Below, in pieces: positions 9,564 through 31,784 of a DNA stretch of 64,000 nucleotides. A program made the position numbers and the translations under genes. The notes under the pieces were generated by a model. That model saw only the letters and a program-made list of their open reading frames with translations, was not told where the DNA came from and did no database searches. Source of the DNA: Paraburkholderia sp. Tr-20389 (GTDB lineage Bacteria; Pseudomonadota; Gammaproteobacteria; Burkholderiales; Burkholderiaceae); the NCBI RefSeq assembly GCF_017104565.1, contig NZ_JAAGPD010000011.1, positions 1 to 64,000 of the forward strand, read 5' to 3'. Within the stretch, counting starts at the first letter, position 1; each line of letters starts with the position of its first letter.

Positions 9564-9600
9564 TTTTGCCTGCGGCGCGGCTTTGCCGGTTTGGTTTTTT

Positions 9601-9726: not shown

Positions 9727-9751
9727 GGTTTTGCTTTAGGTTTTGCTTTCG

Positions 9752-10036
9752 CTGGCATCCGCGTTGGGTTTCTGGTTTGCTGGCGTTGCCCCTGTGCGGG
9801 GCGGCACCTACTTTTCTTTGCAGCGGCAAAGAAAAGTAGGCAAAAGAAAGCCGCTCACACCGCTAGCTCTTGTGCTTGCCTGCGGGCTCCCATCGGGTCC
9901 CGCACTCCAGACGGCAACTCACTTTTTCCCGCTCGTTGCCAGCGCTCCTGGATTCGCATCCCCCACTTCACACTCCCGCGTCACGGACTGTGTTACCAGA
10001 CGCCCACCGCCGCCCAGGTGGCAAACTCTGTGTAGG
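9752..10036 (+). repeat. Dispersed intergenic repeat, left arm of an inverted pair
   Basis: About 285 bp that matches the reverse complement of 10117-10400 over nearly its whole length, with substitutions and small gaps. Landmarks shared in order: GGCATCCGCG, the stretch TTGCCCCTGTGCGGGGCGGC, a long hairpin, TGCCTGCGGGCTCCCA, and GCCGCCCAGGTGGCAAACT. The hairpin at 9807-9821/9826-9840 is a perfect 15-bp stem with an AGCG loop. The element resembles a high-copy intergenic sequence I recall from Paraburkholderia genomes; copy number here needs a search. Confidence 0.75.
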
Positions 10037-12763: not shown

Positions 12764-12831
12764 AGTGTCTCCGTGTGCGCGTCTGCACGACGCGCACTGT
12801 GTATTTTTCGAATGACGGACGAACTATCCGG

Positions 12832-13920: not shown

Positions 13921-13964
13921 TGCATTGCCCTGCTTTTAAGTGGAGAACAGAGGAAAGGGAACCT

Positions 13965-14966: not shown

Positions 14967-16488
14967 GCTCTGTTGCTCCACGAGTGCCGGCTGTTGCACC
15001 AGCCGTTGCATAAGTCATCACGGCATTCGATTCGATCTGGTCGCCTTCGAGCATCGCTTCGATGCGTCCCTGCCGGAATACGGCGACGCGATCGCACATA
15101 CCGACGATCTCCGGCAGTTCCGACGAAATCATGATGATCGAGTAGCCGCGCGCGGTGAGTTCGCGCATCAGCAGATAGATTTCCGCCTTCGCGCCGACGT
15201 CGATGCCGCGCGTCGGTTCGTCGAAGATGAGGATGTTGGTGTGGTGATTCAGCCAGCGCGCGATCACCACTTTCTGCTGGTTGCCGCCCGACAGCGTCGC
15301 GACTTCGGTGTGCATCGTCGGCGCCTTCACGCCGACGCGCTTCATGATGTCGGCCGTCGCCTTCGCTTCGCTGCCGTGATCGATGAAGAAGCGTCCCGTG
15401 CGGTACTTGCCGAGATTGTTGATCGAGATGTTCTGCTTGATCGAGAACGACGTAATCAGCCCTTCCGTCTTGCGGCTCTCGGGCAGAATGCCGATGCCCG
15501 ACTTCAATGCATCCGCGGGATCGGACAGATTCACGGCCGCGCCATTGATGCGAATGTCCTTCACGTGCGCCGCATCCGCGCCGATCACCGCGAGCGCCGT
15601 CTCCGTGCGGCCCGAGCCGACGAGTCCCGCGAAGCCGAGTATTTCGCCTTCGCGCAGCGTGAAGCGATTGACGGGTCCGTCCTTGTGCAACTGCAACGCG
15701 TTCACTTCGAGCACGTGCTTCGCATTGGCGGGCAGCGCCGGCTTCGGCGGAAAGCTGCTTTCGATCCTGCGCCCCACCATCATCTCGACCAGCCGGCTCA
15801 CGTCCGTCTGCGCGACATCTGTCATGCCGACGTACTGTCCATCGCGCAGCACCGTAATGCGGTCGCACACTTCGAAAATCTCTTCGAGGTGATGCGAGAT
15901 GAAGATCATCGCGACACCCTGCTGTTTCAGATCGCGCATGATGGTGAACAGATGCTCGGCTTCGGCGGGCGTGAGCGTTGCCGTCGGCTCGTCCAGAATC
16001 AGGATGCGCGCGTTCAGCGACAACGCCTTGCCGATTTCGACGAACTGCTGCTGCGCGACGGACAGTTCGCGGATCGGCACGGACCGATCAATCGCCACGC
16101 CCAGCCGCGCGAAAATCTCCGCCGCCGCACGGCGCATCTTCGCGCGCTCCAGCATGCCGAAGCGATTGCGCAGCTCGCGTCCGAGGAACATGTTCTCGAC
16201 GGCGTTGAGATACGGAATCAGGCTGAACTCCTGAAACACGATGCCGACGCCCGCCGCCACGGCATCGTGATAGTTCGTGAAGTGCCGCGCTTCGCCGTCG
16301 ATTACGATCGTGCCGTCGTCGGGCTGATAGATGCCGCACAGGATCTTCATCAGCGTCGACTTACCCGCGCCGTTCTCGCCGAGCAGCGCGTGGATCTCGC
16401 CGCGCGCGATCTCCAGATGAATGCCCTGCAACGCCTTCACGCCTGGAAAGCTCTTCGTGATGTTGTCGAGTTTGAGGATCGTGTCCAT
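14953..16488 (-). CDS. Ribose-type ABC transporter ATPase with two nucleotide-binding domains (RbsA family)
   Basis: 511 aa, two fused ABC domains. The first has Walker [10 protein letters not shown] (37-45), an ABC signature reading LSVAQQQ, and Walker B LILDEPTA. The second has the usual degenerate Walker [10 protein letters not shown] but an intact LSGGNQQK signature and LIFDEPTRG. Start follows AAGGAA. Energises import of a polyol or pentose-like substrate. Confidence 0.93.
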
Positions 16489-16503
16489 CGCGTTTCCTTG
16501 TTC

Positions 16504-16537
16504 ATGCGGTGACGCATGCCTGTGCGCGTCACCGCAT
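16504..16537 (-). other. Intercistronic stem-loop after the binding-protein gene
   Basis: A perfect 12-bp stem (16504-16515 with 16526-16537) and a 10-nt loop lie 14 bp past the binding-protein stop and 15 bp before the ATPase start, without a T-run. Such structures commonly protect the upstream mRNA so that binding protein exceeds the membrane parts. Confidence 0.6.
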
Positions 16538-16551
16538 ACACGACACAGTGC

Positions 16552-17517
16552 TTACCAGCTGAAGCCCTTCGCGTTGTCCTTGTCGACCAGCTTCACATCG
16601 ACGGGAATCGTCTTCGGCACATTGGCGCCCCACTTCTTCGCGAGCGCCACGCCGATCGCGAGGCGAATCTGGTCGCGCGGGAACTGCGCGGACGTTTCGA
16701 TGAACTTCGAGTTCGGCTTCTGGATCGCGGTGATCGCTTCCGGCGCGCCGTCGACGCTCGTCAGCTTGATGTCCTTGCCCGACGATTCGATCGCGGACAA
16801 CGCGCCCATCGAGCCGCCGTCGTTCACGCTGAAGATGCCCTTCAGGTTCGGATGCGCCTGGATCATGTTCTCGGTGACGGACAGCGCCGTCGCGCGTTCC
16901 TGCTTGCCGTTCTGCGTATCGACGATCTTCACGTTCGGAAACTTCGCGAGCGCCGCCTTGCAGCCGCGCACGCGTTCGAGAATCGGCACGACGGGAATAC
17001 CGTCGAGAATCGCCACCTCGCCGCTGCCGCCGATCGCCTTCGCGAGGTACTCGCACGACATCTGGCCGGCGTCGAAATTCTTCGAGCCGACGAACGAATC
17101 GACGGGACCATTCGCGTTCGCATCAACGGCGACGACCACGGCGCCCGCCTTCTTCGCCGACGTCACGGCCGACTGGATGCCCGTCGAATCCGTCGGGTTC
17201 ACGAGCAGAATGTCGATCTTCTTCTGCAACATGTCTTCGACGTCGCTGACCTGCTTGCTCACGTCGTGGTGCGCGTCGGTGACGACAACGGTGGCGCCGA
17301 TCGACGCGGCGGCATCGTTGAGCGCCTTTTGCATCGTCACGAAGTACGGATTGTTCAGCTCCTGGAACGTCATGCCGATCTTCAGCGGCGCCGCGTTCGC
17401 GGCGGCGGGTGCGAACAGCGGCGCGCCGAGCATCACGGCGGCGAAGGCGAGCGTCGCGCGAAGGCGCAGCGTGCGGGGCTGATGCGATGTGCCAGTTGAT
17501 GCGTTGCTGTGCGTCAT
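16552..17517 (-). CDS. Ribose-type periplasmic sugar/polyol-binding protein
   Basis: 321 aa, substrate-binding protein of the LacI/ribose type. A signal peptide ends near APAAANA-APLK. The mature start KIGMTFQELNNPYF and later NDGGSMGALSAI match the periplasmic binding protein family. First transporter gene of the cluster, 88 bp after the AraC gene. Start at 17517 is preceded by GGAGA; an upstream extension would be Arg-rich and unrelated. Confidence 0.92.
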   Translation of the reverse strand: MTHSNASTGTSHQPRTLRLRATLAFAAVMLGAPLFAPAAANAAPLKIGMTFQELNNPYFVTMQKALNDAAASIGATVVVTDAHHDVSKQVSDVEDMLQKKIDILLVNPTDSTGIQSAVTSAKKAGAVVVAVDANANGPVDSFVGSKNFDAGQMSCEYLAKAIGGSGEVAILDGIPVVPILERVRGCKAALAKFPNVKIVDTQNGKQERATALSVTENMIQAHPNLKGIFSVNDGGSMGALSAIESSGKDIKLTSVDGAPEAITAIQKPNSKFIETSAQFPRDQIRLAIGVALAKKWGANVPKTIPVDVKLVDKDNAKGFSW

Positions 17518-17605
17518 GGTTTGTCTCCGTTTATGAGGATGAGTGCTTCCCTCGCGCTGTCTGAGGCGCGATGAGCAGGTGAAACGTCGGGATTGCTGGA
17601 GTGCC

Positions 17606-18628
17606 CTAGTTCGTCGGGAGCGGCGAACCGAGAGGCGGATACGCCGCAGGTGCGGCGCGCGGCTGGCCGTGCGCATGAACCTGCGTCTGCGCGGCCGGCA
17701 CGATCGAGGGTGCGTTGGCGATGCCCTTGCCTTGCGCCGCGGCCGCTTCCGAAGCGACGCGGCTCGCGTCGTTCAGTTGCTGGAAGCGGCGGAACTTCGA
17801 CGGGGCCATGCCTTTCGCGGTGAGGAACTGCCGGTTGAAGTTCGACAGATTGTTGAAGCCCACCTTGTAGCAGATGTCGGTGACGCTCAGCTCATCGTCC
17901 ATCAGCAGTTGGCACGCGAGGTTGATGCGCATCCGGTTCACGTACTGCACGAACGTCAGGCCCGTATGCCGGCGGAAGTATCGCGAGAATGCGCTCACGC
18001 TTTGACCGGCGAGCTGCGCGAGTTCGGACTCGCGCAAGTCGGATGAGAGGTTCTTGCCGATATACGACAGCACGTGATTGATGCGCGTCGATGCGTAGCT
18101 GGTCGGGTCGATCTGATACGCGGGGCTCGCGAGCAGTTCGCGGTCGCTCGCGTTCAGCAGGATTTCCATCATCGACAGGAACAGCACGATGCGGCGCAGG
18201 CCGCGCGCGTCGAGCAGTTCCATAAAGAGCGGCTGGATCTTCGCGCTGGTTTGCGGGCCGAACGATACGCCGCGCCGCGAATCCGCCAGCAGCGCTTCGA
18301 GCGTGCGCCACTCGGGAAAGCTCTCCGTGCAGTGCGCAACGAAGTCCTGCGGGAACTGCACGACGAGATTGCGCTGTTCGATCGTCACGCCTTCGGGCAC
18401 TTCGCTGACCCAGTTGTGCGGCAGGTTCGGGCCCATCAGCACGAGATTGCCCGGCGCGAACGGACCGATGTAATCGCCGACGAACATCTTGCCCGTGGTC
18501 GCGACGATCAGATGAATTTCGAATTCCGGATGGAAGTGCCAGCGCACCGTGCGGTACGGGTAGCCGTGATACCACGCCTTGAACGACTCGTCGCGGCGCA
18601 CGGTGACCAGTTCGAGATCGGGTTGCAC
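17606..18628 (-). CDS. AraC-family regulator of the adjoining polyol transporter cluster
   Basis: 340 aa. An N-terminal cupin-like sensing domain (VRWHFHPEFEIHLIV) is followed by two helix-turn-helix motifs (LAQLAGQSVSAFSRYFRRHTG and VTDICYKVGFNNLSNFNRQF segments). The C-terminus has a disordered Ala/Pro/Gln tail of about 50 residues. No ATG fits; I chose GTG at 18628 because AGGAG sits six bases upstream and the family domain begins right after. It heads the minus-strand cluster and probably activates it. Confidence 0.87.
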   Translation of the reverse strand: MQPDLELVTVRRDESFKAWYHGYPYRTVRWHFHPEFEIHLIVATTGKMFVGDYIGPFAPGNLVLMGPNLPHNWVSEVPEGVTIEQRNLVVQFPQDFVAHCTESFPEWRTLEALLADSRRGVSFGPQTSAKIQPLFMELLDARGLRRIVLFLSMMEILLNASDRELLASPAYQIDPTSYASTRINHVLSYIGKNLSSDLRESELAQLAGQSVSAFSRYFRRHTGLTFVQYVNRMRINLACQLLMDDELSVTDICYKVGFNNLSNFNRQFLTAKGMAPSKFRRFQQLNDASRVASEAAAAQGKGIANAPSIVPAAQTQVHAHGQPRAAPAAYPPLGSPLPTN

Positions 18629-19234
18629 GTCGGTCTCCTGATGCGGTGGCTCAAAGGCCCGGCTGTGCGCAGCGCGCGCGTCGCGCACGAGCAGTACGCA
18701 GAGCCGCACATCCAGAAGCAGCTCGATGCGTATGCAACCAGGTAACCGGCATGACGATGCCCTTCATCTGTCTTCCTCCTGTGTCTACGTCGCTCTTGTT
18801 GTGTGTAACGAAAGTTAGTCCCCGGACGCAATGGCGGCCACTAGAAATAAGACCGCGGACCGATACTTTTTTGCATTCGGGTTAATCCTGGCCCTTCCGC
18901 TGTCAAATTTGATGCAACGCAACAGCATGGCGCGCGCCCGCCGCGCAAGACGTAGCGAGACCACCGCACACCTCGGACAGCCCCGCCCCGTCGCGCTGCG
19001 CCACGAAAAGCCGCGTCCTTCGTCTTGACATTCAACCGGTCGAATACGATCATTAGTTCACATGTAGAGCAAATGCTCTTTCAGTCGAACACACTGGCGC
19101 ACACCGCCGGGACAGCTTCTAGACTTATTCGAAGGAACGCACGCGCAAGACCGTGCGGATAACACGTTCAAAACCAGCATGGGACCGGAGCAAGGCGCAA
19201 GTAGCACGAACTCCGGCCGACACAGGAGACGCAC
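18629..19234. other. 606-bp divergent control region between the araC-type gene and dalD
   Basis: No gene seen. The right part contains the dalD promoter and operator (19025-19078). The left part has a weak minus-strand promoter-like pair, TTGACA (18906-18901) and TAACCC (18884-18879), 16 bp apart, that could serve the araC-type gene. The GAGCAA-type operator found at dalD is absent on the left side. Confidence 0.5.
19025..19078 (+). promoter_or_regulatory. dalD promoter and operator
   Basis: TTGACA at 19025-19030, 17 bp, GATCAT at 19048-19053, 13 bp, then the 12-bp interrupted palindrome GAGCAAATGCTC at 19067-19078. The operator would cover the transcription start, a repressing position. 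The smoS operon promoter at 31621-31674 has exactly the same spacing and nearly the same operator. Confidence 0.65.
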
Positions 19235-20644
19235 ATGAACAGCGGCCCAAGCAGCGGCGCAAGCACGCAGGTGATCCTGCATATCGGCGCAGGCTCATTC
19301 CATCGCGCGCATCAGGCCTGGTATCTGCATCGGCTCAATGAAGCGCGCCAACCGAACGATCCGCACTGGTCGCTGACCGTCGGCAACATTCGCAGCGACA
19401 TGAACGCCGTCGCCGACGCGCTCGCCGCGCAAAACGGCGTCTACACGCTCGAAACCGTCACCCCGCAAGGCAAGCGCGCATATGAAACGATCCGCTCGAT
19501 CGAACGCGTGGTGCCGTGGTCCGCGAATCTGGACGCACTCGTCGAAACGGGCGCCGACCCCGCGTGCAAGATCATCGCTTTCACGGTCACGGAAGGCGGC
19601 TATTACCTCGACGAACACGACAAGCTCGACACGGCCAACCCCGACCTCGCCGCCGATCTGAACGGTGCGCGCACTACCATCTACGGCGCGCTCGCCGCGA
19701 TTCTCGAAGCGCGCATGCAGCGCAATGCCGGCCCCGTGACGCTGCAGACCTGCGACAACCTGCGCAGCAACGGCGACCGTTTCCGCGCGGGCATGACGCA
19801 GTTCCTCGACCGGCGCGGCGCGGCTACGTTGCGTCAGTGGTTCGATGCGAACACCGCGTGTCCCAACTCGATGGTCGATCGCATCACGCCGCGTCCGACG
19901 CCCGACGTGCGCGAACGCGTGAAGGCCGCAACGGGCTTCGACGATGCCTGTCCCGTGATGGGCGAATCGTTCATCCAGTGGGTGATCGAAGATCATTTCA
20001 TCGCAGGGCGGCCCGCATGGGAGCAAGTCGGCGCGGAACTGGTCGAATCGGTGCTGCCGTATGAAGAAGCGAAGATCCGCATTCTGAACGCGACGCATAG
20101 CTGCATCGCGTGGGCGGGCACGCTGGTCGGCCTGTCGTATATCCACGAAGGCACGCTCGATCCCGAGATCCGCCAGTTCGCGCACGACTACGTGACGCAA
20201 GACGTGATTCCGTGCCTCACGCCCAGTCCGCTCGATCTCGCGAAGTATCGCGACGTCGTGCTGGAACGCTTCGGCAATCCGTATATCCAGGACACGAATC
20301 AGCGCGTCGCCGCCGATGGCTTCTCGAAGATTCCCGGCTTCATCGCGCCCACGCTGTCCGAGTGCTTCGCGCGCAAGGTCGAACCGAATGCGACGGCGAT
20401 GCTGCCCGCACTGTTCCTGCGCTTTCTCGACAGATGGCAGCGCGGCCAGTTGCCGTACACGTATCAGGACGGCGTGATGGATGAAGGCGTCGCGCGTGGC
20501 TTCTTCAAGGCAGGTGATCCCGTGCAGGCGTTCTGCGCGGACCGGCTGCTGTGGGGCAGCATGGCGGGGTCGGCTGCGCTGGAGAACGTCGTGCGTTCCG
20601 CGCTCGGACGCGTCGATGCATGGCTCGACAAGCGCCGCAAATAA
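19235..20644 (+). CDS. dalD: D-arabinitol 4-dehydrogenase
   Basis: 469 aa, polyol-specific long-chain dehydrogenase of the mannitol dehydrogenase family, oxidising D-arabinitol to D-xylulose with NAD. The N-terminal [20 protein letters not shown] segment and the catalytic signature K280-IRILN285-ATH288 are clear, and the sequence follows the Klebsiella/Ralstonia DalD pattern through [14 protein letters not shown]. Followed after 170 bp by xylB; that gap holds a 13-bp hairpin with one mismatch (20669-20681/20687-20699) but no T-run, perhaps an mRNA-processing element. Confidence 0.93.
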
Positions 20645-20814
20645 AGACTTAAACATTCGCAAGCTCATGGCCGCGCATGAACCCCGTTCACGCGCGGCCG
20701 CTCTCATTGATCGCCGCTCACGACGCCTCGCATCCGTCAGGTCTTTTGCGCATGGCATCGCAGGCGGCATGCGGCTAAAGTAGCGCATCTCCTACCGACG
20801 AAGGTTTCGCGCCC

Positions 20815-22299
20815 ATGTATCTCGGCATCGACCTCGGCACGTCCGAAGTGAAAGTTCTGCTGCTCGCGTCCGATGGACACGTGGTCGGCACGGCAGGTTC
20901 TCCGTTCACTGTTTCGCGACCGCATCAGCGGTGGTCGGAGCAGAATCCGTCCGACTGGTGGCAAGGCACGCGCACCGCGCTGTTCGCGCTGCGCGACCGC
21001 TTTCCGGAACAGTTCGCGCAGATTCGCGGTATCGGCCTGTCGGGGCAGATGCACGGCGCCGTGCTGCTCGATCACGAAGACCGCGTGCTGCGCCCGGCGA
21101 TTCTCTGGAACGACATGCGCGCCGTCGAAGAGTGCGACGAGCTGTATCGCCGTGCACCGGACCTGCACCGGATCGCCGGCAATCTGGCGATGCCCGGCTT
21201 CACCGCGCCGAAACTGTTATGGGTCGCGCGCCATGAGCCCGAGATTTTCCGGCAGACGGCGTGTGTGCTGCTGCCGAAGGATTACTTGCGCCTGCAACTG
21301 ACGGGCGACAAGGTCTCCGATCCGTCCGACGCCGCCGGCACGCTCTGGCTCGACGTCGCGCAGCGCGACTGGTCCGATACGCTGCTCGCGGCCTGCGACC
21401 TGAACCGCTCGCACATGCCGCGTCTCGCCGAAGGCAGTGCGCCTTCGGGCATGCTGCGTCCCGAACTCGCACGCGAACTCGGCTTGCGCGAACCCGTCGT
21501 GGTCGCGGCGGGCGGCGGGGACAACGCGACCAGCGCGATCGGCATCGGCGCGACGCAACCGGGCGACGGCTTCGTATCGCTCGGCACGTCGGGCGTGCTG
21601 TGCGTGATCGGCAACAGCTTCCGGCCGAATCCGGAATCCGCCGTGCACGCGTTCTGTCACGCGATTCCAGACCGCTGGCATCAGATGAGCGTGGTGCTGT
21701 CGGCGGCGAGCTGCCTGCGCTGGGTCTGCAAACTCACGTCGACCGACGAGCCCACGCTGCTCGCCGAAATCGAAAAGCTGCCCGACGAAGCGCTCGCCAC
21801 GGCGCCGTTGTTCCTGCCGTATCTGTCGGGCGAGCGCACGCCGCACAACGACCCGTATGCGCAAGGCGTCTTCTTCGGCATGACGCACGCCACCGACCGC
21901 ACGCTGCTCGGCTACGCGGTGCTCGAAGGCGTGACGCTCGCGCTGACGGACGGCCTCGACGCGTTGCGCGCGGCGGGCACGGAAGTGAACGCGTTGTCGC
22001 TGCTGGGCGGCGGCGCGCGGAGCAACTACTGGGCGCAACTGCTGGCCGATTCGCTGAACACGACCACGCGCAAGCATGGTGGCGGCGAAACGGGTGCGGC
22101 GCTCGGCGCAGCGCGCCTCGGCTGGCTTGCGGCAGGTGGCGATCCGGCAAAGGTGTTGACCAAGCCGCCCGTCGAAATCGAATTCACGCCGAATGCAAAG
22201 CGGCACGCGGTGTTGCGCGAGCGGCTCGCAGGCTATCGCGCGTTGTACCGTCATGTGAAGCCGATGTTCGCGCCCACGCGCGAAGCGAACGCAACGTAG
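20815..22299 (+). CDS. xylB: Xylulokinase
   Basis: 494 aa, FGGY kinase phosphorylating D-xylulose to xylulose 5-phosphate, which enters the pentose phosphate pathway. True XylB features: GIDLGTSEVK at the start, GIGLSGQMHGAVLLD, PSDAAGTLWLD, YLSGERTPHNDP and GGGARSNYWAQLLAD. It directly completes the arabinitol route begun by DalD. Confidence 0.95.
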   Translation: MYLGIDLGTSEVKVLLLASDGHVVGTAGSPFTVSRPHQRWSEQNPSDWWQGTRTALFALRDRFPEQFAQIRGIGLSGQMHGAVLLDHEDRVLRPAILWNDMRAVEECDELYRRAPDLHRIAGNLAMPGFTAPKLLWVARHEPEIFRQTACVLLPKDYLRLQLTGDKVSDPSDAAGTLWLDVAQRDWSDTLLAACDLNRSHMPRLAEGSAPSGMLRPELARELGLREPVVVAAGGGDNATSAIGIGATQPGDGFVSLGTSGVLCVIGNSFRPNPESAVHAFCHAIPDRWHQMSVVLSAASCLRWVCKLTSTDEPTLLAEIEKLPDEALATAPLFLPYLSGERTPHNDPYAQGVFFGMTHATDRTLLGYAVLEGVTLALTDGLDALRAAGTEVNALSLLGGGARSNYWAQLLADSLNTTTRKHGGGETGAALGAARLGWLAAGGDPAKVLTKPPVEIEFTPNAKRHAVLRERLAGYRALYRHVKPMFAPTREANAT

Positions 22300-22410
22300 T
22301 GTGAACATGCAGCAGACTGCGATGAACGTCACCAGCATGCAACGCACCAGAACGCCTGTCGAGGGCTTCCTGGTGTCACGCGCTTCGGCGCAATCCTGAC
22401 CGCCAACATC

Positions 22411-23379
22411 GTGCCCAAGTCCACTGAAAAACTCGATCTCGCGACGCGCGCCGCCTGGCTCTATTACGTCGCGGGCAATACGCAAAACGAGATCGCGGAA
22501 AAACTGCAGGTGTCGCGGCCCGTCGCGCAGCGGCTCGTCGCGTTCGCCGTCGAAAAGAACCTGATCCGGGTGCGCGTCGACCATCGGCTCGCCGACTGTC
22601 TGTCGCTGGCAGATCAACTGTCGAAGCGCTACGGCCTCTCGATGTGCGAAGTCGTCCCCGTCGACAACGACAAGCCGGAAGAAATCGACCGCAAGCTCGC
22701 CGTCGCGGGCGCGCAGGTGATGGAACGCTATCTCAACGAAGAACGGCCGATGGTCGTCGCGGTGAGCAGCGGCCGGACGCTGAAGGCAGTCGTCGATCAG
22801 GTCGGGCAACTGGAGCGGCCGCAGCATCGGCTCGTGTCGATGGTCGGCGCGATTGCACAGGACGGTTCGTCGAACCGTTACGACGTCGCGCTGCACATCT
22901 CCGAGAAGACGGGCGGCAAGCACTTCCTGCTGCCCGCGCCGCTGATCGCCGATAGCGAGGCGGAACGCGCGCAGTGGTGCAATCACCGTCTCTACCGGAT
23001 CGTCGAATCGCTATCGGGCGAGGCGGATGTCGCGTTCGTCGGGATCGGTAACATCGGCCTGCATTGTCCGCTGCACGAAGACGGCTTCATCACGTCGGAA
23101 GAAGTGGAAGAACTCGTGTCGCTAGGCGCCGTGGCCGAACTGCTCGGCCTGCCCATCGACGCGGGCGGCGCACGCGTCGAATCGCCGACGGGCCGCCGCG
23201 TCACGAGCTTGCGCCTCGATTCGCCGCCGAAGCGTCCCGTGATCGGCTTCGCGGGCGGTGAACGCAAACGCAATGCGGTGATTGCCGCGTTGAAGGGCGG
23301 CTGGCTATCGGGGCTGGTGACCGATGAACTGTGTGCACGCGCCGCGCTGAATCACGAGAACGGAGCGGCGGCACGCTGA
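22411..23379 (+). CDS. SorC/DeoR-type sugar-binding transcriptional regulator, candidate polyol regulator
   Basis: 322 aa. N-terminal helix-turn-helix (about 10-55, NTQNEIAEKLQVSRPVAQRL) and a C-terminal sugar-phosphate-binding domain of the SorC family (VAVSSGRTLKAVV; VGIGNIG; GFAGGERKRNAVIAALKGG). GTG start at 22411. It lies 111 bp after xylB in the same direction and so is probably cotranscribed. By position it is the best candidate for binding the GAGCAA(A/T)TGCTC operators at dalD and smoS. Confidence 0.88.
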   Translation: MPKSTEKLDLATRAAWLYYVAGNTQNEIAEKLQVSRPVAQRLVAFAVEKNLIRVRVDHRLADCLSLADQLSKRYGLSMCEVVPVDNDKPEEIDRKLAVAGAQVMERYLNEERPMVVAVSSGRTLKAVVDQVGQLERPQHRLVSMVGAIAQDGSSNRYDVALHISEKTGGKHFLLPAPLIADSEAERAQWCNHRLYRIVESLSGEADVAFVGIGNIGLHCPLHEDGFITSEEVEELVSLGAVAELLGLPIDAGGARVESPTGRRVTSLRLDSPPKRPVIGFAGGERKRNAVIAALKGGWLSGLVTDELCARAALNHENGAAAR

Positions 23380-23407
23380 CGCGGGTGAAGTAAGAGGCGC
23401 TGCGTGG

Positions 23408-25189
23408 TTATAGTGCTTCGAGCGCGCTGCGCACGGATTCGACCACGGGCGTCCAGTCGCCCAGAACCTGCTGCCGGAACAGACGTGCGGTCGGATACCA
23501 CGGGCTGATGTCGCCCGACATCATCCAGCGCCAGTCGGCCTGCTGCGGCAGCAACACCCACACCGGCTTGCCGAGCGCACCCGCCAGATGCGCGACGGAC
23601 GTATCGACGGTAATGACGAGGTCCAGTGACTCGATCACGGCGGCCGTCGCGTCGAAGCTGTCGAGCCACTGGCCGAGCGCGCAGATCGGCCAGCGATGCG
23701 CGAGGCCATCCAGCTGCGATTCGCCCGCGCCCTTCTGCAACGCGAACCACGCGAGGCCGCGCACCGATGCGAGCGGTTCGAGCACGGCGAGCGGCGCTGA
23801 ACGGTACACATCGAGGTAGTGCTGCGGATTGCCTGCCCACACGAGTCCGACTCTCCTGCTCGAACCCGCGGCCTGCCCGATCCGCTCGCGCCATGCGTCG
23901 ACCTGCGTCTCGTCCGCCGACAGATACGGCACGACACGCGGAATCGCATCGTCGTCGAGCCACGTGGGCACGCTCATCATCCGGCAGTAGTAGTCGTAGC
24001 CGCCTGTCGGTGCGTGGTTCAGCACGCGACGCACGCCGCGCGTGCGCGCGAAGAGCGGCGCCAGTTCGTCGCTCGTCCAGACGTCGACGGTTGCGCCCAG
24101 ATCGTGCAGCACGCCGGCATAGCGAACGAACTGCAACTGGTCGCCCGCACCCTGCTCTCGCGCCAACAGAAAGCGCTTGCCGTCGAGCGGCTCGCCCTGC
24201 CATTCGGGCAGGTCGAGTAATGGGTAATCGCGCAGGCCGCTCTGCGTCGTCTTGCGATGCTCGTAGTACGTCCAGCCCTTGCGAAAATTCCCGCGCCGCA
24301 GTTCCGACATGCCGAGCAGCTTGTACGCGTTCGACACATCCGGTGCGATTTCGATTGCGCGGCGAAGATGTTCGTCGGCTTCGTCGTAGCGCGACATGCA
24401 GGTCAACGTGAAAGCGATGTTGTTGTGCAGCGTCGCCGAATTCGGCAAGACCTCCAGCGCGCGTTTATAGCGGATGACTGCGTCTTCGAAATTCAGTTGG
24501 GCGTCGACCGCGAAGGCGACGCCAAACAACGCGTGTACATTCTCCGGCTCCAGTTGCAGCGCGCGGTCGAAACACGCTGCGGCGTCCGCGTGGCGGCGCA
24601 CTGCGTTGAGCGTCACGCCGAGGCCCAGCAACACGCGCATATCGTCGGGTGCAAAGCGCGCGGCGAATTCGTACGCAGTCACTGCTTCATGCGGACGCGC
24701 GAGGGTCTCGAGCATGTCCGCGCTGCCGAGCGCCGCTTCGAAAGAATGGTTGTCCAGTGCGAGCGCCCGTTGAAAGCTGGCCAGCGCATCTTCCGGCTTC
24801 GACAGTCGCCGTAGCGCCTTGCCCAGGTTGCAGTGCGCGAGCGCATCGTGCGGCGCGCAGTCGATTGCTCTGCGAAAGAAGTTCGCCGCGTCTTCGTTCT
24901 CGCCACGCGAAAGCGCTGCGATGCCGCGATCGTTCAGACAGTCCGCGTGATCCGGCTGCAGCGCGAGCGTTGCATCGAAGCACTCGATCGCGCGCTCCAC
25001 ATCCTGCCGCTGCAGATACAGCACGCCGAGCATATAGCGCGTGTTCGTGTCGTCGGGTTGTATGTCGAGAATCGCGCGATACGCCTGTTCGGCGCGATCG
25101 AGTTCGCCCGCGCGATGCAGCGCCAGCGCATGCTCGACGTGCGGCATCGGGACGGTGTTTTCGTGTGTGAGGAGGGAAGCGTTGTGCAT
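23408..25189 (-). CDS. TPR-repeat protein with glycosyltransferase-like C-terminal domain
   Basis: 593 aa. Roughly residues 15-310 are consecutive tetratricopeptide repeats (for example AIECFDATLALQPDHADCLN). The C-terminal ~270 residues match the ADP-heptose-like glycosyltransferase fold: LLAREQGAGDQLQFVRY, GLVWAGNP, and DLVITVDTSVAHLAGALGKP followed by WVLLP. Such fusions are thought to glycosylate proteins or surface polymers; substrate unknown. Start could also be 25147; neither has a strong site. It stands between the SorC gene and the transporter operon and has no obvious link to polyol use. Confidence 0.8.
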   Translation of the reverse strand: MHNASLLTHENTVPMPHVEHALALHRAGELDRAEQAYRAILDIQPDDTNTRYMLGVLYLQRQDVERAIECFDATLALQPDHADCLNDRGIAALSRGENEDAANFFRRAIDCAPHDALAHCNLGKALRRLSKPEDALASFQRALALDNHSFEAALGSADMLETLARPHEAVTAYEFAARFAPDDMRVLLGLGVTLNAVRRHADAAACFDRALQLEPENVHALFGVAFAVDAQLNFEDAVIRYKRALEVLPNSATLHNNIAFTLTCMSRYDEADEHLRRAIEIAPDVSNAYKLLGMSELRRGNFRKGWTYYEHRKTTQSGLRDYPLLDLPEWQGEPLDGKRFLLAREQGAGDQLQFVRYAGVLHDLGATVDVWTSDELAPLFARTRGVRRVLNHAPTGGYDYYCRMMSVPTWLDDDAIPRVVPYLSADETQVDAWRERIGQAAGSSRRVGLVWAGNPQHYLDVYRSAPLAVLEPLASVRGLAWFALQKGAGESQLDGLAHRWPICALGQWLDSFDATAAVIESLDLVITVDTSVAHLAGALGKPVWVLLPQQADWRWMMSGDISPWYPTARLFRQQVLGDWTPVVESVRSALEAL

Positions 25190-25382
25190 GGCGTCTTGAG
25201 TCGGCCGCACGCGAATGTTTGCGCGATCTGACGAGCAATCGCGCGAATGACGTGCTGGGCGGGGTGGACGGATGCCGGACAGAACCACCTGAAGAACGGC
25301 TCAGATGCACGCTGTCAGACGATGCACAATTTTGATATGGGATACGGCGCGGAACTATCGGACAAGTCCGAGTCTTCCATAA

Positions 25383-25416
25383 AGAAAAAGCGCCGTTGCA
25401 GCGATGCCGACGGCGC
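25383..25416 (-). terminator. Terminator of the smo-type operon
   Basis: A GC stem (GCGCCGT 25390-25396 with ACGGCGC 25410-25416, with possible inner pairing) is followed on the minus strand by CTTTTTCTTT. It lies 25 bp past the stop of the ATPase gene at 25442. Confidence 0.65.
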
Positions 25417-25441
25417 CCTCTTTGCGATGTAAAACGGTGAA

Positions 25442-26551
<1,110 letters not shown>

Positions 26552-26639
26552 GATGTGTCTCCAATGTCGACGGGTGTTGGCGCCTTGGCGCTGATGTCCG
26601 TCCCGTACGAAATAGTTGCTGTCCCTGCTACGTCGAATC

Positions 26640-27335
26640 TCACGCCACCGTCACGCGATGCAGCCATTGCGCGACCAGCTCCGGCAAAAGCTTCATGTCG
26701 TCGAATATGTGTTGCGCGCCGAGCTGCCGCAGCGTGTCGACCTGCTCGTCGCTCGCATGCCCGCCGCCGATAAAGCCATACACCGTCATGCCCGCCGCCG
26801 TCGCCGCCGTTACGCCCGCCACGCTGTCCTCGATCACGAGGCACGCTTCGGGGTTCACGCCGATCGCGCGCGCGGCGGCGAGATAGACGTCGGGAGCGGG
26901 CTTCGGCGCCTCGACGGTATCCGCGCAGAACAGACGGGTTCCGAAGTGCTTCACGAGACCCGTGCGCTCGAGCACCGCTTCGACGTAGCCGCGATCGCTG
27001 TTGCTCGCGCAGGCCTTCGTCAGCGGGATTTGCGCGAGCGCCGCATCGATGCCTTCGACCATCGGCGCCTTGACGGCCGACGCGCCGACCGACACGCGGA
27101 TCGCGTCGATATCGTCCGCCGTCAACGTCATGCCGAGCGCCGAGGCCGCACCTTGCAGCACGCGCTCGGTGCGCAGCCCGAGGAGCGGCATCACGACGGG
27201 CGCGATGTCGAGGCCGGGCCAGCGCGCTTCCAGTTGCTGCACGATGACCGTGGCCGCGACGGCTTCGCTGTCGATCAGCACGCCGTCGCAGTCGCAGATC
27301 AGCGCGAGGTTCGCGTCGGTTCTGAGGTCCGTCAC
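26640..27335 (-). CDS. HAD-family phosphatase in the polyol operon
   Basis: 231 aa, subfamily like beta-phosphoglucomutase/sugar-phosphate phosphatases. Motif I CDCDGVLIDSE holds the nucleophile D15 and acid D17; motif II is KACASNSD; motifs III/IV are APKPAPDVYL and VIEDSVAGVTAA. Its start overlaps the permease stop by 4 nt, so it is truly part of the operon. The transporter imports free polyols, so the substrate is not obvious: a sugar-phosphate detoxifier or a mannitol-1-phosphatase-like role are both possible. Confidence 0.85.
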   Translation of the reverse strand: MTDLRTDANLALICDCDGVLIDSEAVAATVIVQQLEARWPGLDIAPVVMPLLGLRTERVLQGAASALGMTLTADDIDAIRVSVGASAVKAPMVEGIDAALAQIPLTKACASNSDRGYVEAVLERTGLVKHFGTRLFCADTVEAPKPAPDVYLAAARAIGVNPEACLVIEDSVAGVTAATAAGMTVYGFIGGGHASDEQVDTLRQLGAQHIFDDMKLLPELVAQWLHRVTVA

Positions 27336-28198
27336 TTGACCGCCCCGAAGGTAAGGCCACGCACCAGCTGTTTCTGCGAAACCCAGCCGACGATCAGGAT
27401 CGGCGCCACGGCCAGCAGCGACGCCGCCGACAGCTTCGCCCAGAACAGCCCTTCAGGACTCGAGTACGACGCGATGAACACGGTCAGCGGCGCGGCGTTC
27501 GAACTGGACAGGTTGATGCTCCAGAACGCTTCGTTCCACGACAGGATCACCAGCAGCAGCGCCGTCGATGCGAGACCCGGTAACGACATCGGCATCAGCA
27601 GATAGACGATCTCCTGCCACGTCGCCGCGCCGTCGATCCGCCCCGCTTCGAGAATGTCGCGCGGAATTTCGGCGAAGTACGTGAACGACATCCACACGGC
27701 AATCGGCAGATTGATCAGCGTGTAGACGATCACGAGTCCGCTGACGGTATCGAGCAGACCGCTGTTCTTCCACAGCAGATAGATCGGCACCAGCACGCCG
27801 ACGGACGGCATCATCTTCGTCGACAGCATCCACAGCAGCACCTTCTGCGTGCGCCGGGTCGGGAAGAACGCCATCGCATAGGCGCACGGCACCGCCAGAA
27901 TCAGGCACAGCAGCGTGACACCGACCGAGATCAGGATCGAGTTCCACGCGAAGCCGAAGTAATTGCTGCGCGCGAACACTTCGCGGAAGCTCTCCAGCGT
28001 CGGCGTGAAAAACAGCGACGACGCGTAAGCCTGCTGCTCCGTCTTGAATGCCGTGATGGTCATCCAGAAGATCGGGAAGAACAGCAGCAGCGCGATGAAC
28101 CACGCGAGGATGCCCGGAATGCTGCGGCCGACGATTGCGAGCGGCGAATTGACCTTCGTCGGCTTCGTCGTGACAGGTGTAGCGGCAAGCTGGCTCAT
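27332..28198 (-). CDS. smoG: Polyol ABC transporter permease (SmoG/MalG type)
   Basis: 288 aa, six predicted membrane segments with the EAA loop around EIPRDILEAGRIDGAATWQ, which docks on the ATPase. Starts within the stop of the preceding permease (4-nt overlap at 28195-28198) and ends within the HAD start. Length is typical for the MalG subfamily. Confidence 0.92.
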   Translation of the reverse strand: MSQLAATPVTTKPTKVNSPLAIVGRSIPGILAWFIALLLFFPIFWMTITAFKTEQQAYASSLFFTPTLESFREVFARSNYFGFAWNSILISVGVTLLCLILAVPCAYAMAFFPTRRTQKVLLWMLSTKMMPSVGVLVPIYLLWKNSGLLDTVSGLVIVYTLINLPIAVWMSFTYFAEIPRDILEAGRIDGAATWQEIVYLLMPMSLPGLASTALLLVILSWNEAFWSINLSSSNAAPLTVFIASYSSPEGLFWAKLSAASLLAVAPILIVGWVSQKQLVRGLTFGAVK

Positions 28199-29133
28199 TT
28201 TTCGTACTCCCCTTTCAGGTTCTTCGCGAGCATGCGCACGAGGAAGAACGACACGATGTTCGCGAGCACCACGGCGAGAATCCCGCCTGCGGAAGCAAGG
28301 CCGACGTCGAACTGTTGCAGGCCGAGCGCGTAGATCAGGTAAGACAGGTTGGTCGTCGCGTTGCCCGGACCGCCGCCCGTCGTCGTGTAGATTTCGGCGA
28401 AGATCGACAGCAGGAAAATGGTTTCCATCATCACGACCACGGCGATCGCGCGTTTCAGGTGCGGCAGCGTGATGAAGAAGAACATCGCGAACGGACCGGC
28501 GCCGTCGATTTTCGCGGCTTCCTTCTGCTCCTGATCGAGCGACTGGATCGCCGTGAAGAGAATCAGGAACGCGAACGGTAACCACTGCCACGCGACGATG
28601 ATGATGACGGACGTCAATGGATAATCCGCGAACCAGTCGATCGGCGCGAGCCCGACCGCGCGCATGCCGTCTGCGATGAGCCCGTACACCGGGTGCAGGA
28701 TCATGTTCTTCCAGATCAGCGCGGAGACGGTCGGCATCACGAAGAACGGTGCGATCGCGAGTAATCGTGCGATGCCCTGCCCGTAGAACTTGCGGTCGAA
28801 CAGCACCGAGAGCAGCACACCGCCGACCACGGTGATGAGCAGCACGGCGATGATCAACTCCAGCGTGTGGGCGATCGATGGACCGAACGCCGGATCGCTG
28901 GCGAGATACTTGTAGTTGTCGAGCCCTGTGAAACCCTTTTCATCCGGGTTCAGCAAGTTGTAGCGCGAGAACGAAAACCAGATCGTCATCGCGAGTGGAA
29001 TGGCCATCCACAGGACGAGGACGCCGACGGATGGTGTCACCAGCCAGCGCGCGTGCGCGGCCTTGCGCTCTTCGCGCTCGTGTTCGGTCTGGGGTTCGGC
29101 ATGCATGAGGGGTAGACGCAAGTGTTGACGCAT
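28195..29133 (-). CDS. smoF: Polyol ABC transporter permease (SmoF/MalF type)
   Basis: 312 aa, six membrane segments and an EAA loop (SLDQEQKEAAKIDGAGPFAM). An Arg/Glu-rich cytoplasmic N-terminus (residues 10-27) precedes the first membrane segment. I chose the ATG at 29133, preceded by AAGAGGTGG; longer in-frame starts add an unrelated stretch. Confidence 0.9.
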   Translation of the reverse strand: MRQHLRLPLMHAEPQTEHEREERKAAHARWLVTPSVGVLVLWMAIPLAMTIWFSFSRYNLLNPDEKGFTGLDNYKYLASDPAFGPSIAHTLELIIAVLLITVVGGVLLSVLFDRKFYGQGIARLLAIAPFFVMPTVSALIWKNMILHPVYGLIADGMRAVGLAPIDWFADYPLTSVIIIVAWQWLPFAFLILFTAIQSLDQEQKEAAKIDGAGPFAMFFFITLPHLKRAIAVVVMMETIFLLSIFAEIYTTTGGGPGNATTNLSYLIYALGLQQFDVGLASAGGILAVVLANIVSFFLVRMLAKNLKGEYEK

Positions 29134-29295
29134 GATGGACCACCTCTTGGGTAGTGCGCGGGCCGCGGGGGCGTGCGGCTCACTGTGCTGCCAGGAGTCC
29201 GGCTGACGATGCATTGACCTGCACTGTCGGCCGGCGTTGTGCATCGGTTCCGGCTGGGTGCTGCTTCCCTGCGAGGCTACGGGTAGGGTCTTGGA

Positions 29296-29329
29296 CACGC
29301 CGTCCGCGTGGGGTGAAGCAGACGGCGTG
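29296..29329 (-). other. Intercistronic stem-loop between smoE and smoF
   Basis: CACGCCGTC (29296-29304) pairs perfectly with GACGGCGTG (29321-29329) around a 16-nt loop. It lies 28 bp after the binding-protein stop with no T-run, in a 224-bp gap. The placement mirrors the stem-loop at 16504-16537 in the other transporter. Confidence 0.5.
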
Positions 29330-29357
29330 CCAATTTCACAGCAGGCGTAACGCGGGC

Positions 29358-30680
29358 TTACTTCTGATAGCCCGCCTGCTTCACGGCGCGGTCCGCCGTC
29401 GCGTTGCCTGCTGCCAGCGCCTGATCGACCGACATCTGGCCTGCCACCGCACCCGAGATGCTCTGACCGACCACCGTGCCGAACGACTGGAACTCAGGGA
29501 TACCGACGAACTGCACGCCCGTGTACGGCACGGGCTTCGCCGTCGGATGCGTCGGGTCGGCCGTTTCGATGGCCTTCAGCACGAAATCGGCGAACGGTGC
29601 GGCCTGCTTGTATTCAGGACGCGCATACGTCGACTGACGCGTGCCCGGCGGCACCGACGCCCAGCCTTCATCCTTCGCGGCGAGTTCGATGTACTGCTTC
29701 GACGTCGCCCACGTGATGAACTTCTTGGCCGCGTCGGCCTGCTTCGACGACTTCGGAATCGCCAGCGCCCACGCCCACAGCCAGTGCGAGCCATTCGGCG
29801 TGGCTTGCGTCGGCGCAGCCGCGAATCCGACCTTGTCCGAGATCTGCGATTGCTGCTTGTTGTAAAGCATGCCGGCCGCAACCGTCGCGTCGATCCACAT
29901 CGCGCACTTGCCCGACGACATCAGCGTGAGGTTTTCGTTGAAGCCGTTCGAGCTCGCTCCCGGAGGGCCGTCCTTCTTCAGCAGATCGACGTAGAACGAC
30001 ACCGCCTTCTTCCACTCCGGCGTGGTCAGCTGCGCGTGCCACTTTTCGTCGAACCAGCGTCCGCCGAACGTGTTCACGAGCGTCGTCACGTACGCCATGT
30101 TCTCGCCCCAGCCTGCCTTGCCGCGCAGACAGATGCCGTAGGTGCCTGCCGCTTTGTCGGTGAGCTTGTCGGCAAACTGGGCGATCTGGTCGTAGGTCGG
30201 GTTGTCGGGCATCTTCAGGCCCTTCGCCGCGAACAGATCCTTGCGGTAATACGTCATCGAGCTTTCGACGTAAAACGGCAGCGCGTACAGCGAGCCGTTG
30301 TAAGAAAGACCGTCGCGCGCCGTCTTCACGACGTCGTTCAGATCGTAATCGGCGGGCAGGTCGGTGAGCGGCGTGAGCCAGCCGCGCTTGCCCCATTGCG
30401 GCGTTTCATACGCGCCGATCGTCATCACGTCGAACTGGCCGCTGCCCGTCGTGATGTCCGTCGTCGCGCGCTGACGCAGCACGTTCTCTTCCAGAATCAC
30501 CCAGTTGAGCTTGATGTCGGGATTCGCTTTCTCGAATGCCGGCGACAGCTTCTTCAGCTCGATCATGTCCGGGTTGTTCAATGTCGCGATCGTCACGGTC
30601 GCCGCGTTGGCGCTGAAAGCAGCGCACGCGAGCGCCGCTGTGCCGAATGCGTTGAGCGCGGGTTTGCAGGTGGGCTTCAT
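29358..30680 (-). CDS. smoE: Periplasmic polyol-binding protein (SmoE type)
   Basis: 440 aa, family 1 extracellular solute-binding protein. The signal peptide ends near FSANA-ATVT. Mature features include TIATLNNPDMIELKKL, VMTIGAYETPQWG and GWGENMAYV, as in sorbitol/mannitol-binding SmoE/MtlE proteins. Specificity between sorbitol, mannitol and arabinitol cannot be read directly. Second gene of the operon, 89 bp after smoS. Confidence 0.9.
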   Translation of the reverse strand: MKPTCKPALNAFGTAALACAAFSANAATVTIATLNNPDMIELKKLSPAFEKANPDIKLNWVILEENVLRQRATTDITTGSGQFDVMTIGAYETPQWGKRGWLTPLTDLPADYDLNDVVKTARDGLSYNGSLYALPFYVESSMTYYRKDLFAAKGLKMPDNPTYDQIAQFADKLTDKAAGTYGICLRGKAGWGENMAYVTTLVNTFGGRWFDEKWHAQLTTPEWKKAVSFYVDLLKKDGPPGASSNGFNENLTLMSSGKCAMWIDATVAAGMLYNKQQSQISDKVGFAAAPTQATPNGSHWLWAWALAIPKSSKQADAAKKFITWATSKQYIELAAKDEGWASVPPGTRQSTYARPEYKQAAPFADFVLKAIETADPTHPTAKPVPYTGVQFVGIPEFQSFGTVVGQSISGAVAGQMSVDQALAAGNATADRAVKQAGYQK

Positions 30681-30769
30681 CGTTTGTCTCCTTTATTCGT
30701 ACTTGCGTTTTGGTACGTGACCGGCGGATGCGTGTGCGCCGGGTAGCGGTTGCGGCGAATGAATGCCCG

Positions 30770-31552
30770 TCAGCTCATCCAGTTGCCGCCGTCGACGTTC
30801 AGGGTTTGCGCGGTGATGTAATCCGCATCGGACGATGCGAGGAACAGCGCCGCCCCCGTCAGATCCGCAGGCAGCCCCATCCTGCCCAGCGGCACCGCTT
30901 CACCGACGAGACGCTTCTTCTCGCCGAGCGGCCGGTTTTCGTAACGCGCGAAGAGTGCATCGACCTGCTCCCACATCGGCGTATCGACGACGCCTGGTGC
31001 GATGCCGTTCACGTTGATCTGGTGCGGCGCGAGCGCGAGCGCGGCGGACTGCGTATAGCTGAGCACGGCTGCCTTGGTCGCGCAGTAGTGCGACACGAGC
31101 GCCTCGCCGCGGCGGCCCGCCTGCGACGACATATTGATGATCTTGCCGCCATGGCCTTGCTCGACCATGCGCTTTGCGACAGCCTGCATCAGAAAGAACA
31201 TGCCTTTCACGTTGACCGCGAAAAGCTTGTCGAAGATGTCCCAGGATTCGTCGAGGAGCGGCCGCATGTCGAACAGCGCCGCGTTGTTGAAGAGAATGTC
31301 GATCTGGCCGAAACGCTGCACCGTCTGCTCGACGATGCGCGCGATGTCTTCGCGCTTCGTGACGTCCGCACTCACGGTCAACACGCGATCGCCGTCCGAT
31401 TCGCGCAGCGCATGCGCGAAATCGCTCGCCGGCTTCACGTCCACCAGCACGCAGCGCGCGCCCTCTTCGAGATATCGCCGGGCCACTGCCTCGCCGATAC
31501 CGCTCGCCGCGCCGGTGAGAATCGCCACCTTGCCTTGCAGTCGGGCTGTCAC
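30770..31552 (-). CDS. smoS: Sorbitol (L-iditol 2-)dehydrogenase-like SDR (SmoS type)
   Basis: 260 aa. Cofactor loop TGAASGIG (13-20), NNAALFD, and catalytic Y156-x3-K160 (YCATK). Long stretches such as KIINMSSQAGRRGEALV, INVNGIAPGVVDTP and DYITAQTLNVDGGNWMS follow the Rhodobacter SmoS sorbitol dehydrogenase pattern closely. First gene of the minus-strand operon, preceded by GGAGACA. Probably oxidises D-sorbitol to fructose and perhaps galactitol or other polyols. Confidence 0.9.
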   Translation of the reverse strand: MTARLQGKVAILTGAASGIGEAVARRYLEEGARCVLVDVKPASDFAHALRESDGDRVLTVSADVTKREDIARIVEQTVQRFGQIDILFNNAALFDMRPLLDESWDIFDKLFAVNVKGMFFLMQAVAKRMVEQGHGGKIINMSSQAGRRGEALVSHYCATKAAVLSYTQSAALALAPHQINVNGIAPGVVDTPMWEQVDALFARYENRPLGEKKRLVGEAVPLGRMGLPADLTGAALFLASSDADYITAQTLNVDGGNWMS

Positions 31553-31601
31553 AACCTGTCTCCGGTTCGTTTGATTCTTCGATCGATGTTTCGATCAGCA
31601 T

Positions 31602-31674
31602 GAGCTAACGCTCGGTGATCGAGCAATTGCTCTCGTTGTGATCGAATGATCGGATACGCGTCCGGTCATGTCAA
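31602..31674 (-). promoter_or_regulatory. smoS operon promoter with operators
   Basis: On the minus strand: TTGACA (31674-31669), 17 bp, GATCAT (31651-31646), 13 bp, GAGCAATTGCTC (31632-31621), a perfect 12-bp palindrome. A second, weaker inverted element GAGC-N4-GCTC is at 31602-31613, centre 19 bp further on. The core arrangement equals that of dalD; even GATCATT-G-TCAC between -10 and operator is shared. Confidence 0.65.
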
Positions 31675-31784
31675 GGCGCGCCGCGCAATTTCGATGGTGC
31701 AGCGCGGCAGCGCCAAAAAGGTTCGTCCAAGGCTGTCTTACTAAGAATCGGCGATGACTTTGCAACGGGCAATGACATTTTTTC

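Follow-up and report, generated by a model that had tools for sequence, protein, structure and literature searches.

Repressors of the SorC family bind two-part operators as dimers of dimers, and in one of them, DeoR, the residues R34 and R39 contact bases (PMC11229326). In S. meliloti, SmoC negatively regulates smoEFGKS-mtlK, and a smoC mutant expresses smo constitutively (PMC10433430). No operator for SmoC is described in the consulted part of that paper. In the present study we analysed the window, i.e., the whole stretch of 64,000 nt at the start of contig NZ_JAAGPD010000011.1 of Paraburkholderia sp. Tr-20389, in which the promoters of dalD-xylB and of a smo-type transporter operon share one design: a -35 hexamer followed by two 12-bp operator sites, O1 and O2, whose starts are 19 bp apart. 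A putative two-promoter regulon under the SorC-type protein encoded at 22411-23379 is the reading favoured and supported by our comparative tests.

The locus resembles that of S. meliloti SmoC, where a 43% identical SorC-type regulator gene precedes the genes for the same transporter, smoS and mannitol dehydrogenase; the S. meliloti genes form a single operon that excludes the separately transcribed regulator gene, whereas here two convergent operons are predicted, with sorC inside the dalD operon (PMC10433430). As in B. subtilis DeoR and CggR, we propose a tetramer on a two-half operator and a phosphosugar effector domain, and the helix-turn-helix (HTH) type is that of DeoR; the spacing of the halves differs, being 22 bp for DeoR and 20 bp for CggR, as counted from the printed sequences, against 19 bp here, the half-sites also differ from ours, and the DeoR operator occupies -60 to -21, whereas O1 lies over the -10 and a third site is added at smo (PMC11229326). 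EryD is likewise a polyol-operon repressor with a short operator, eryO, of 29 bp as against 31 bp for O1-O2, but eryO sits between the -35 and the -10, unlike O1-O2 (PMC10190533). MtlR of P. fluorescens, an AraC/XylS-type activator, controls an operon that responds to mannitol, arabitol and glucitol; it binds ahead of the -35, a position that may be shared by whatever protein recognises an upstream box described below, but its site, AGTGC-N5-AGTAT-N7-AGTGC-N5-AGGAT, is unlike both this box (GCRCCAYCGAAA) and the O1-O2 pair (PMC4514859); a mannitol MtlR-type site was a poor fit to our promoters and was rejected. Neither the regulator family nor the two-part operator is new, and what is unusual here is a very well conserved geometry. 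Among the matches listed in our searches of mostly open-access literature, the titles and the beginnings of abstracts held no prior description of the regulon, the operator sequence or the 19-bp rule, and the word SorC does not occur in PMC12568896, PMC8231600 or PMC5343134.

Promoters, operators and the upstream box

Both promoters read TTGACA-17-GATCAT-13-GAGCAAWTGCTC. On the plus strand, the dalD promoter has its -35 TTGACA at 19025-19030, O1 (GATCATTAGTTC) at 19048-19059, whose first six bases (GATCAT, 19048-19053) are the predicted -10, and O2 (GAGCAAATGCTC) at 19067-19078. On the minus strand, the smo promoter has its -35 TTGACA at 31669-31674, O1 (GATCATTCGATC) at 31640-31651 over the predicted -10 (GATCAT, 31651-31646) and O2 (GAGCAATTGCTC) at 31621-31632, so that the start-to-start step from O1 to O2 is 19 bp at both; the smo side alone has a further site, O3 (GAGCGTTAGCTC), at 31602-31613, 19 bp past O2. 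O1 has the form GATCATTCG(A/T/C)TC, with GATCAT at its left end, and its halves, GATCA on the left and GNTC on the right, are of the same kind as those in the O2 form GAGCAAWTGCTC. When O1 is paired against O2 about the axis between them, 8.9 (dalD) and 8.4 (smoS) of 12 pairs are symmetric, and at two loci (L141 and L145) O1, O2 and their flanks join into a single long palindrome centred between the two sites; the flanks are mostly asymmetric genus-wide (1.3 and 2.1 of 6 pairs). With GATCAT as the -10, O1 would extend from about -12 to -1, O2 from about +8 to +19 and O3 from about +27 to +38. The -35 is perfect, and the -10 is weak, matching TATAAT at 4/6 positions.

An earlier sequence-only reading of this DNA had given the coordinates and both spacings of the two promoters exactly (19025-19078 plus; 31674-31621 minus). 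It also placed GATCAT correctly, but missed that this hexamer belongs to a further, imperfectly palindromic operator, O1, and it missed the constant 19-bp step and the upstream box as well. What it called a second weaker site at 31602-31613 is present, and is better described as the conserved third operator O3 at the same 19-bp step. The two operons lie on opposite strands, as it said, and belong to one cluster with the gene order dalD-xylB-sorC> <smoK...smoE-smoS; the two transcription units converge, so that the promoters mark its outer borders.

Conservation was examined at 61 loci of the genus (60 fetched loci and the window), with usable upstream DNA for 47 dalD and 37 smoS promoters; TTGAC and GATCAT served as the anchor of the rows, and every row contained it. 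The pattern TTGAC[A/T]-17-GATCAT with a GANCANNTGNTC-type site at the 19-bp step was present in 47/47 dalD and 37/37 smoS promoters. Taken singly, TTGAC[AT] and an O1 fitting GANCANNNGNYC were found in all 47 dalD promoters and the 17-bp spacer in all 37 smoS promoters, and O2 fitted GANCANNTGNTC throughout both sets. The mean column information of O1 was 1.68 bits at dalD and 1.78 bits at smoS; O3, which in relatives often reads GAGCGTTCGCTC, had a mean of 1.42 bits at smoS, against 0.23 bits at the equivalent place of dalD. In a collection of named strains, which overlaps the genus set (10/47 and 8/37 promoters are identical letter for letter), the full pattern was found in 70/74 dalD and 69/71 smoS promoters; of the remainder, four dalD promoters and one smoS promoter carried a variant and L219 carried none. 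The expected conservation upstream of orthologous dalD and smoS genes is thus borne out.

The palindrome alone is at the chance level in the window (16 matches on both strands with at most two mismatches, 12.7 expected), and exact GAGCAAWTGCTC occurs at five places in the genome of 9.0 Mb (129 contigs). Besides the two promoters, one of these lies inside an open reading frame (ORF) on contig C19, one upstream of an ORF, presumably glutamate-cysteine-ligase-like, on C20 without the upstream parts of the design, and one between two ORFs, in a repeat resembling a terminator (C128:81922). The strict operator-pair pattern was found at exactly two places, so that the strict pair indicates no further regulon members in this genome, the three other exact GAGCAAWTGCTC sites lacking the design, although weaker members may exist. 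The other polyol cluster of the window (10482-18628), which had already been said to lack the motif, has no operator pair and only a lone GANCANNTGNTC match at 15946 inside an ORF (plus-strand scan of a strand-symmetric form). The strict pair was present in 119/299 genomes of the family, mostly one per strand, and genomes for which both places were listed had them roughly 10-17 kb from each other; the backwards control gave no match in any listed genome. The proposed motif search has separated the full design, which is non-random, from the palindrome alone. The complete design is far beyond chance, and its arising by chance is not credible, as the sequence-only reading had argued.

Further upstream, we found a box that looks like an activator site. 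At dalD it reads GCGCTGCGCCACGAAAA (18993-19009, plus strand) and ends 15 bp before the -35; at smo it reads CGCTGCACCATCGAAA (31689-31704, minus strand) and ends 14 bp before the -35. At least 10/12 letters of the box consensus GCRCCAYCGAAA, which was derived from the same promoters as were counted, were found in 38/47 dalD promoters and 12/12 letters in 37/37 smoS promoters, with shuffle rates of 1.2% and 0.6%, respectively. The gap to the -35 was 14 bp in 23/37 smoS promoters and 25-26 bp, about one helical turn more, in 14/37; at dalD it was 14-16 bp in 37/38 and 26 bp in 1/38. Outside the genus, 11-12/12 letters were present before smo in the inspected loci of groups g10, g12, g14 and g25 and 10-12/12 letters before dalD in g12 and g14, and by eye the box was present with at most one mismatch in 4/5 loci of g21. 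It was not found at dalD in the four g25 loci, in g18 or in the g10 loci L142, L156 and L157, nor in the inspected loci of g16, g17 and g24. In the own genome, CGCTGCRCCAYCGAAA with at most two mismatches gave 74 places against 40 in the backwards control, and of six places fetched, the three checked against ORFs were all in coding frames, by eye two flagellin-like and one MFS-like. The combination GCRCCAYCGAAA-N8-30-TTGAC was matched in 56/59 genus genomes, by coordinates mostly at smo and dalD promoters with scattered others. The related combination GCGCCATCGAAAA-N7-8-TTGAC was observed at nine places in seven genus genomes away from the polyol cluster (e.g., G009:C37, G056:C1 and G106:C2). 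The form of the box recalls single AraC/XylS-type sites such as that of SoxS, GCAC-N7-TAAA (PMC4514859), and we mention this only as a lead.

The SorC-type regulator and the 19-bp spacing

The regulator (22411-23379, plus strand, GTG start), whose gene is predicted to come third in a dalD-xylB-sorC operon, belongs to the SorC/DeoR subfamily by its effector domain (PF04198, 1.4e-53, 182 bits, cut-off 27), and its N-terminal HTH, a homeodomain-like one of 50-60 residues, is DeoR-like, with phmmer matches to full-length DeoR (6.4e-23) and to the DNA-binding domain 7bhy (1.1e-7). It matches the LsrR, DeoR and SorC structures by sequence and stays below the cut-offs of the LsrR equivalog NF011947 (127.6 bits, cut-off 486) and the DeoR equivalog NF053881 (119.4 bits, cut-off 420). 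The base-contacting R34 and R39 of DeoR, in native numbering as we infer it, align with R36 and R41 of the regulator, which are invariant among ten diverse orthologs (A1). The predicted monomer structure had a mean pLDDT of 55, too poor for use. The 19-bp step at both promoters and in distant homologs is what the operators of the SorC family, with two halves about two turns apart, would lead one to expect. The linkage is that of a SmoC-type regulon, the SorC-type gene standing together with smoEFGK/smoS and polyol dehydrogenase genes in both the window and the S. meliloti record, and a 19-bp operator pair by the promoter, which is a criterion proposed in this work rather than an established one, is also present.

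The SorC gene was found in 97/98 genus genomes with at least 86% identity; the protein of P. xenovorans LB400 is 89% identical. Among the 299 family genomes, with SorC presence defined by E <= 1e-100, 118 had both SorC and the strict pair, 20 had SorC only, one had the pair only and 160 had neither. Fifteen of the 20 SorC-only genomes were inspected (G216, G233, G255, G262 and G295 were left out): 12 had O1 and a variant O2 at the promoter where a pair was expected, and the other three, all of g16, had O1 and an O2 half-site with an 18-bp spacer. At three loci of g17, where smoK, dalD, xylB and sorC are consecutive, a single promoter with the pair precedes smoS or smoE. In g24, whose SorC proteins are 55-56% identical, the operator pair is GATTATTTGCTC and GGACAATTGCTC at 19 bp, and in g21 (about 40%) it is TATCATTTGCCC and TTACATTTGTAA or a relative, again at 19 bp, in 5/5 loci by eye. 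The operators diverge along with the regulator. The g21 clusters (L151-L155) run smoE...smoK-sorC-dalD, with the changed half-site TTACATTTGTAA and the spacing unchanged.

A search of a plasmid collection gave 36 records with homologs of less than 60% identity, two of which were opened. In the S. meliloti record CP090106.1, the 43% identical homolog precedes genes for a binding protein, two permeases, an ATPase, L-iditol 2-dehydrogenase and a protein of the mannitol dehydrogenase family, which is the order smoC-smoEFGK-smoS-mtlK of PMC10433430; by this gene order the protein should be SmoC (SMc01495), although the record is labelled pSymB and PMC10433430 puts smo on the chromosome. TTGACA-16-GAGTAATTGCTC-7-AGGCAAATGCTC stands between its regulator gene and smoE. 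In a Klebsiella plasmid, the gene of a 44% identical homolog is divergent from dalD-xylB, and GGGCATATGCCC-7-GATTAATTGCTC stands before dalD.

For the spacing test, a symmetric matrix was trained on 27 distinct genus sites, and the best-scoring pair at 13-30 bp was taken at 32 loci, of which 30 were the top-ranking ones when the phylum was searched with the S. meliloti protein (matches in 43/349 genomes) and two came from the plasmid-collection records. The S. meliloti locus counts as Alphaproteobacteria and the Klebsiella locus as Gammaproteobacteria, the others being scored as same or other class. The best-scoring spacing was 19 bp in 26/32 loci and in 13/17 genera; the mean best-pair score was 16.2 for this spacing, whereas the remaining 17 gave 5.8-8.3. 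The same spacing won in 33/640 block shuffles, 0/32 reversed sequences and 2/20 loci of SorC paralogs with 25-37% identity, which were picked from 51 same-genus rows. By eye, 20 of the 26 winners had a hexamer with at least five of the six letters of TTGACA at a distance of 15-18 bp ahead of the pair, two orientations and six gaps having been tried and the best match kept. The paralog loci L291 (G058) and L290 (G092) have high-scoring pairs at 18 bp, GAGCAAATGCTC-6-TGACAAATGCTC and GAACATTTGATT-6-GAGCAAATTCTC; these are perhaps from another SorC group with a spacing of its own. The co-occurrence across the family and the distant 19-bp pairs speak for the small regulon, with the SorC-type protein as candidate regulator, that the sequence-only reading had put forward.

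On these results, we regard the following as probable, when taken as a whole. The SmoC-like SorC clade of alpha-, beta- and gammaproteobacteria, linked to smo or dalD/xylB, would use one operator grammar of two 12-bp GANCA-NN-TGNTC sites exactly 19 bp apart, the first of which lies on or beside the -10. The geometry would outlast the sequence, 19 bp being kept even where the regulators are about 40% identical and the half-site is TTACA, and the Burkholderiaceae promoters would additionally carry a locus-specific activator box in helical phase, 14-16 or 25-26 bp from the -35.

Proposed mechanism and alternative explanations

The conserved promoter, the operator pair, the 19-bp geometry and the link with this SorC clade can be read from the sequences themselves; binding, the DNA-bound tetramer and repression are proposed by analogy with S. 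meliloti SmoC, DeoR and CggR, and the operon structure and the effector are predictions. On this footing, we consider it highly probable that a SorC tetramer bridges O1 and O2 and keeps both operons and also its own gene repressed until a phosphosugar of the pathway releases it. The SorC/DeoR-type regulator would act as a dimer of dimers, with one HTH dimer at each of O1 and O2, and the tetramer would cover the -10 and the start and block RNA polymerase at both operons; at smo, O3 would add a second, overlapping pair, O2-O3. If dalD-xylB-sorC is one operon as predicted, SorC would also repress itself. Repression is the likely sense because the S. meliloti smoC mutant is constitutive for smo. 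A phosphosugar is the expected type of effector, because SorC effector domains bind phosphosugars and the effectors of DeoR and CggR are intermediates of the pathways that these control (PMC11229326); it would most likely be D-xylulose 5-phosphate, the product of the co-encoded XylB on the dalD branch. Release of the regulator would then induce jointly the uptake and the oxidation of arabinitol- and sorbitol-type polyols.

Several points weigh against this interpretation. The spacing of 19 bp corresponds to 1.8 helical turns, so that the two sites would be misaligned in facing unless the DNA bends or untwists, and O1 is a poor palindrome, with on average 3.0 (dalD) or 3.8 (smoS) of 6 symmetric pairs as compared with 5.2 for O2. 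One family genome (G391) carries the strict pair without a SorC match, and because a genome usually either has all of SorC, dalD and smo or lacks all three, co-occurrence alone cannot separate the regulator from its targets. Six of the 32 distant loci prefer another spacing, although in two of these the 19-bp pair falls short of the best by no more than 1.0 bit; three of the 19-bp winners (L264, L265 and L271) are weak (13.2-13.3 bits), and the 26 winners are non-independent, seven coming from genus g121. Since 18 bp won at 5/20 paralog loci, neighbouring spacings do occur in the SorC family. The genomes compared are related, and the conservation counts are accordingly non-independent.

SorC-family proteins can also activate, EryD being described as both positive and negative, and the SorC protein might bind O1 and O2 mainly as an activator or dual regulator whose ligand-bound form is tolerated at O1 and the -10. 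The weak -10 beside a perfect -35 and the conserved upstream box, which suggests activation at both promoters, would suit this possibility, but O1 over the -10 and O2 downstream of the predicted start are in the position of a repressor, and constitutive expression in the smoC mutant also speaks against it; we judge it unlikely. Still less likely, in our estimation, is that another regulator, whether AraC-type, zur-like or unlinked, binds the palindromes while SorC controls something else. In the window an AraC-type gene (17606-18709) is indeed divergent from dalD and a zur-like gene divergent from smoS, but the AraC-type gene had no match (E 1e-60) in 13 of the 20 genomes searched, and the same geometry recurs beside SorC-type genes in other classes. 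The AraC-type protein itself was rejected as the binder because four genomes without such a match (G022, G115, G226 and G177) keep both promoters. That one promoter was recently copied from the other, by duplication or gene conversion, without a common function, for which one could cite only that both ends belong to one cluster, is hardly credible, because in 24 genomes the two promoters of the same genome agree at 85-89% in the -35, O1 and O2, less in the 7-bp gap (64%) and near chance in the spacer (38%) and outer flanks (27-28%), while each promoter retains its own signature.

Genes of the cluster and meaning of the proposed regulon

The named loci closest to the window are Paraburkholderia and Burkholderia sp. 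records. On the plus strand, dalD (19235-20644) encodes D-arabinitol 4-dehydrogenase (NCBIfam NF043014, 775 bits, cut-off 600) and xylB (20815-22299) xylulokinase (TIGR01312, 568 bits, cut-off 380). On the minus strand, smoS (30770-31552), the first gene of the smo operon, encodes sorbitol (L-iditol 2-) dehydrogenase (NF005472, 471 bits, cut-off 338), and is followed by a smoE-like solute-binding protein gene (29358-30680; PF01547, 2.3e-57), smoF-like (28195-29298) and smoG-like (27332-28591) permease genes, which match PF00528 and are named by position, the latter being given as its longest ORF with the real start probably further in, a gene for a HAD-family sugar-phosphatase-like protein (26640-27335; profile matches) and a smoK-like ABC transporter ATPase gene (25442-26551; UgpC NF008653, 479.6 bits, cut-off 432). 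Each of dalD-xylB-sorC and smoS-E-F-G-HAD-K is predicted to be one operon. Between sorC and smoK lies a gene for a TPR protein with a weak glycosyltransferase-9 match (23408-25288, minus strand), which separates the two genes in the window and in five fetched loci (L056-L060) whose SorC is 97-98% identical; of the 40 loci with both sorC and smoK, the window included, 21 have them no more than 400 bp apart.

Some observations lie outside the regulon. Between the zur-like gene and smoS, at 31799-31787 on the minus strand, is GATATAACGTATC, which resembles a Zur box and has similar letters in several relatives. At L071 (G130), the matches to dalD, xylB, smoE, smoK and smoS are shortened, which suggests broken frames or poor assembly. 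The window also holds a long ORF of low-complexity Ala-Lys repeats (9270-9758 minus, or 9445-10035 plus) beside a gene that is presumably tryptophan 2,3-dioxygenase-like.

For a SorC protein conserved in Paraburkholderia, Burkholderia, Caballeronia and Trinickia, of which the matches listed in our literature searches held no description, the present analysis would supply a regulatory role together with operators and targets. Since the 19-bp spacing recurs by related regulators in other Proteobacteria, it is usable as a rule for target prediction, and the rule, namely two 12-bp sites at the -10 with a 19-bp step, predicts operators of SmoC-like regulators, including that of the S. meliloti smo locus. 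It also allows tests of how a SorC tetramer may read two sites that are 1.8 helical turns apart, and it may serve in building polyol-inducible promoters.

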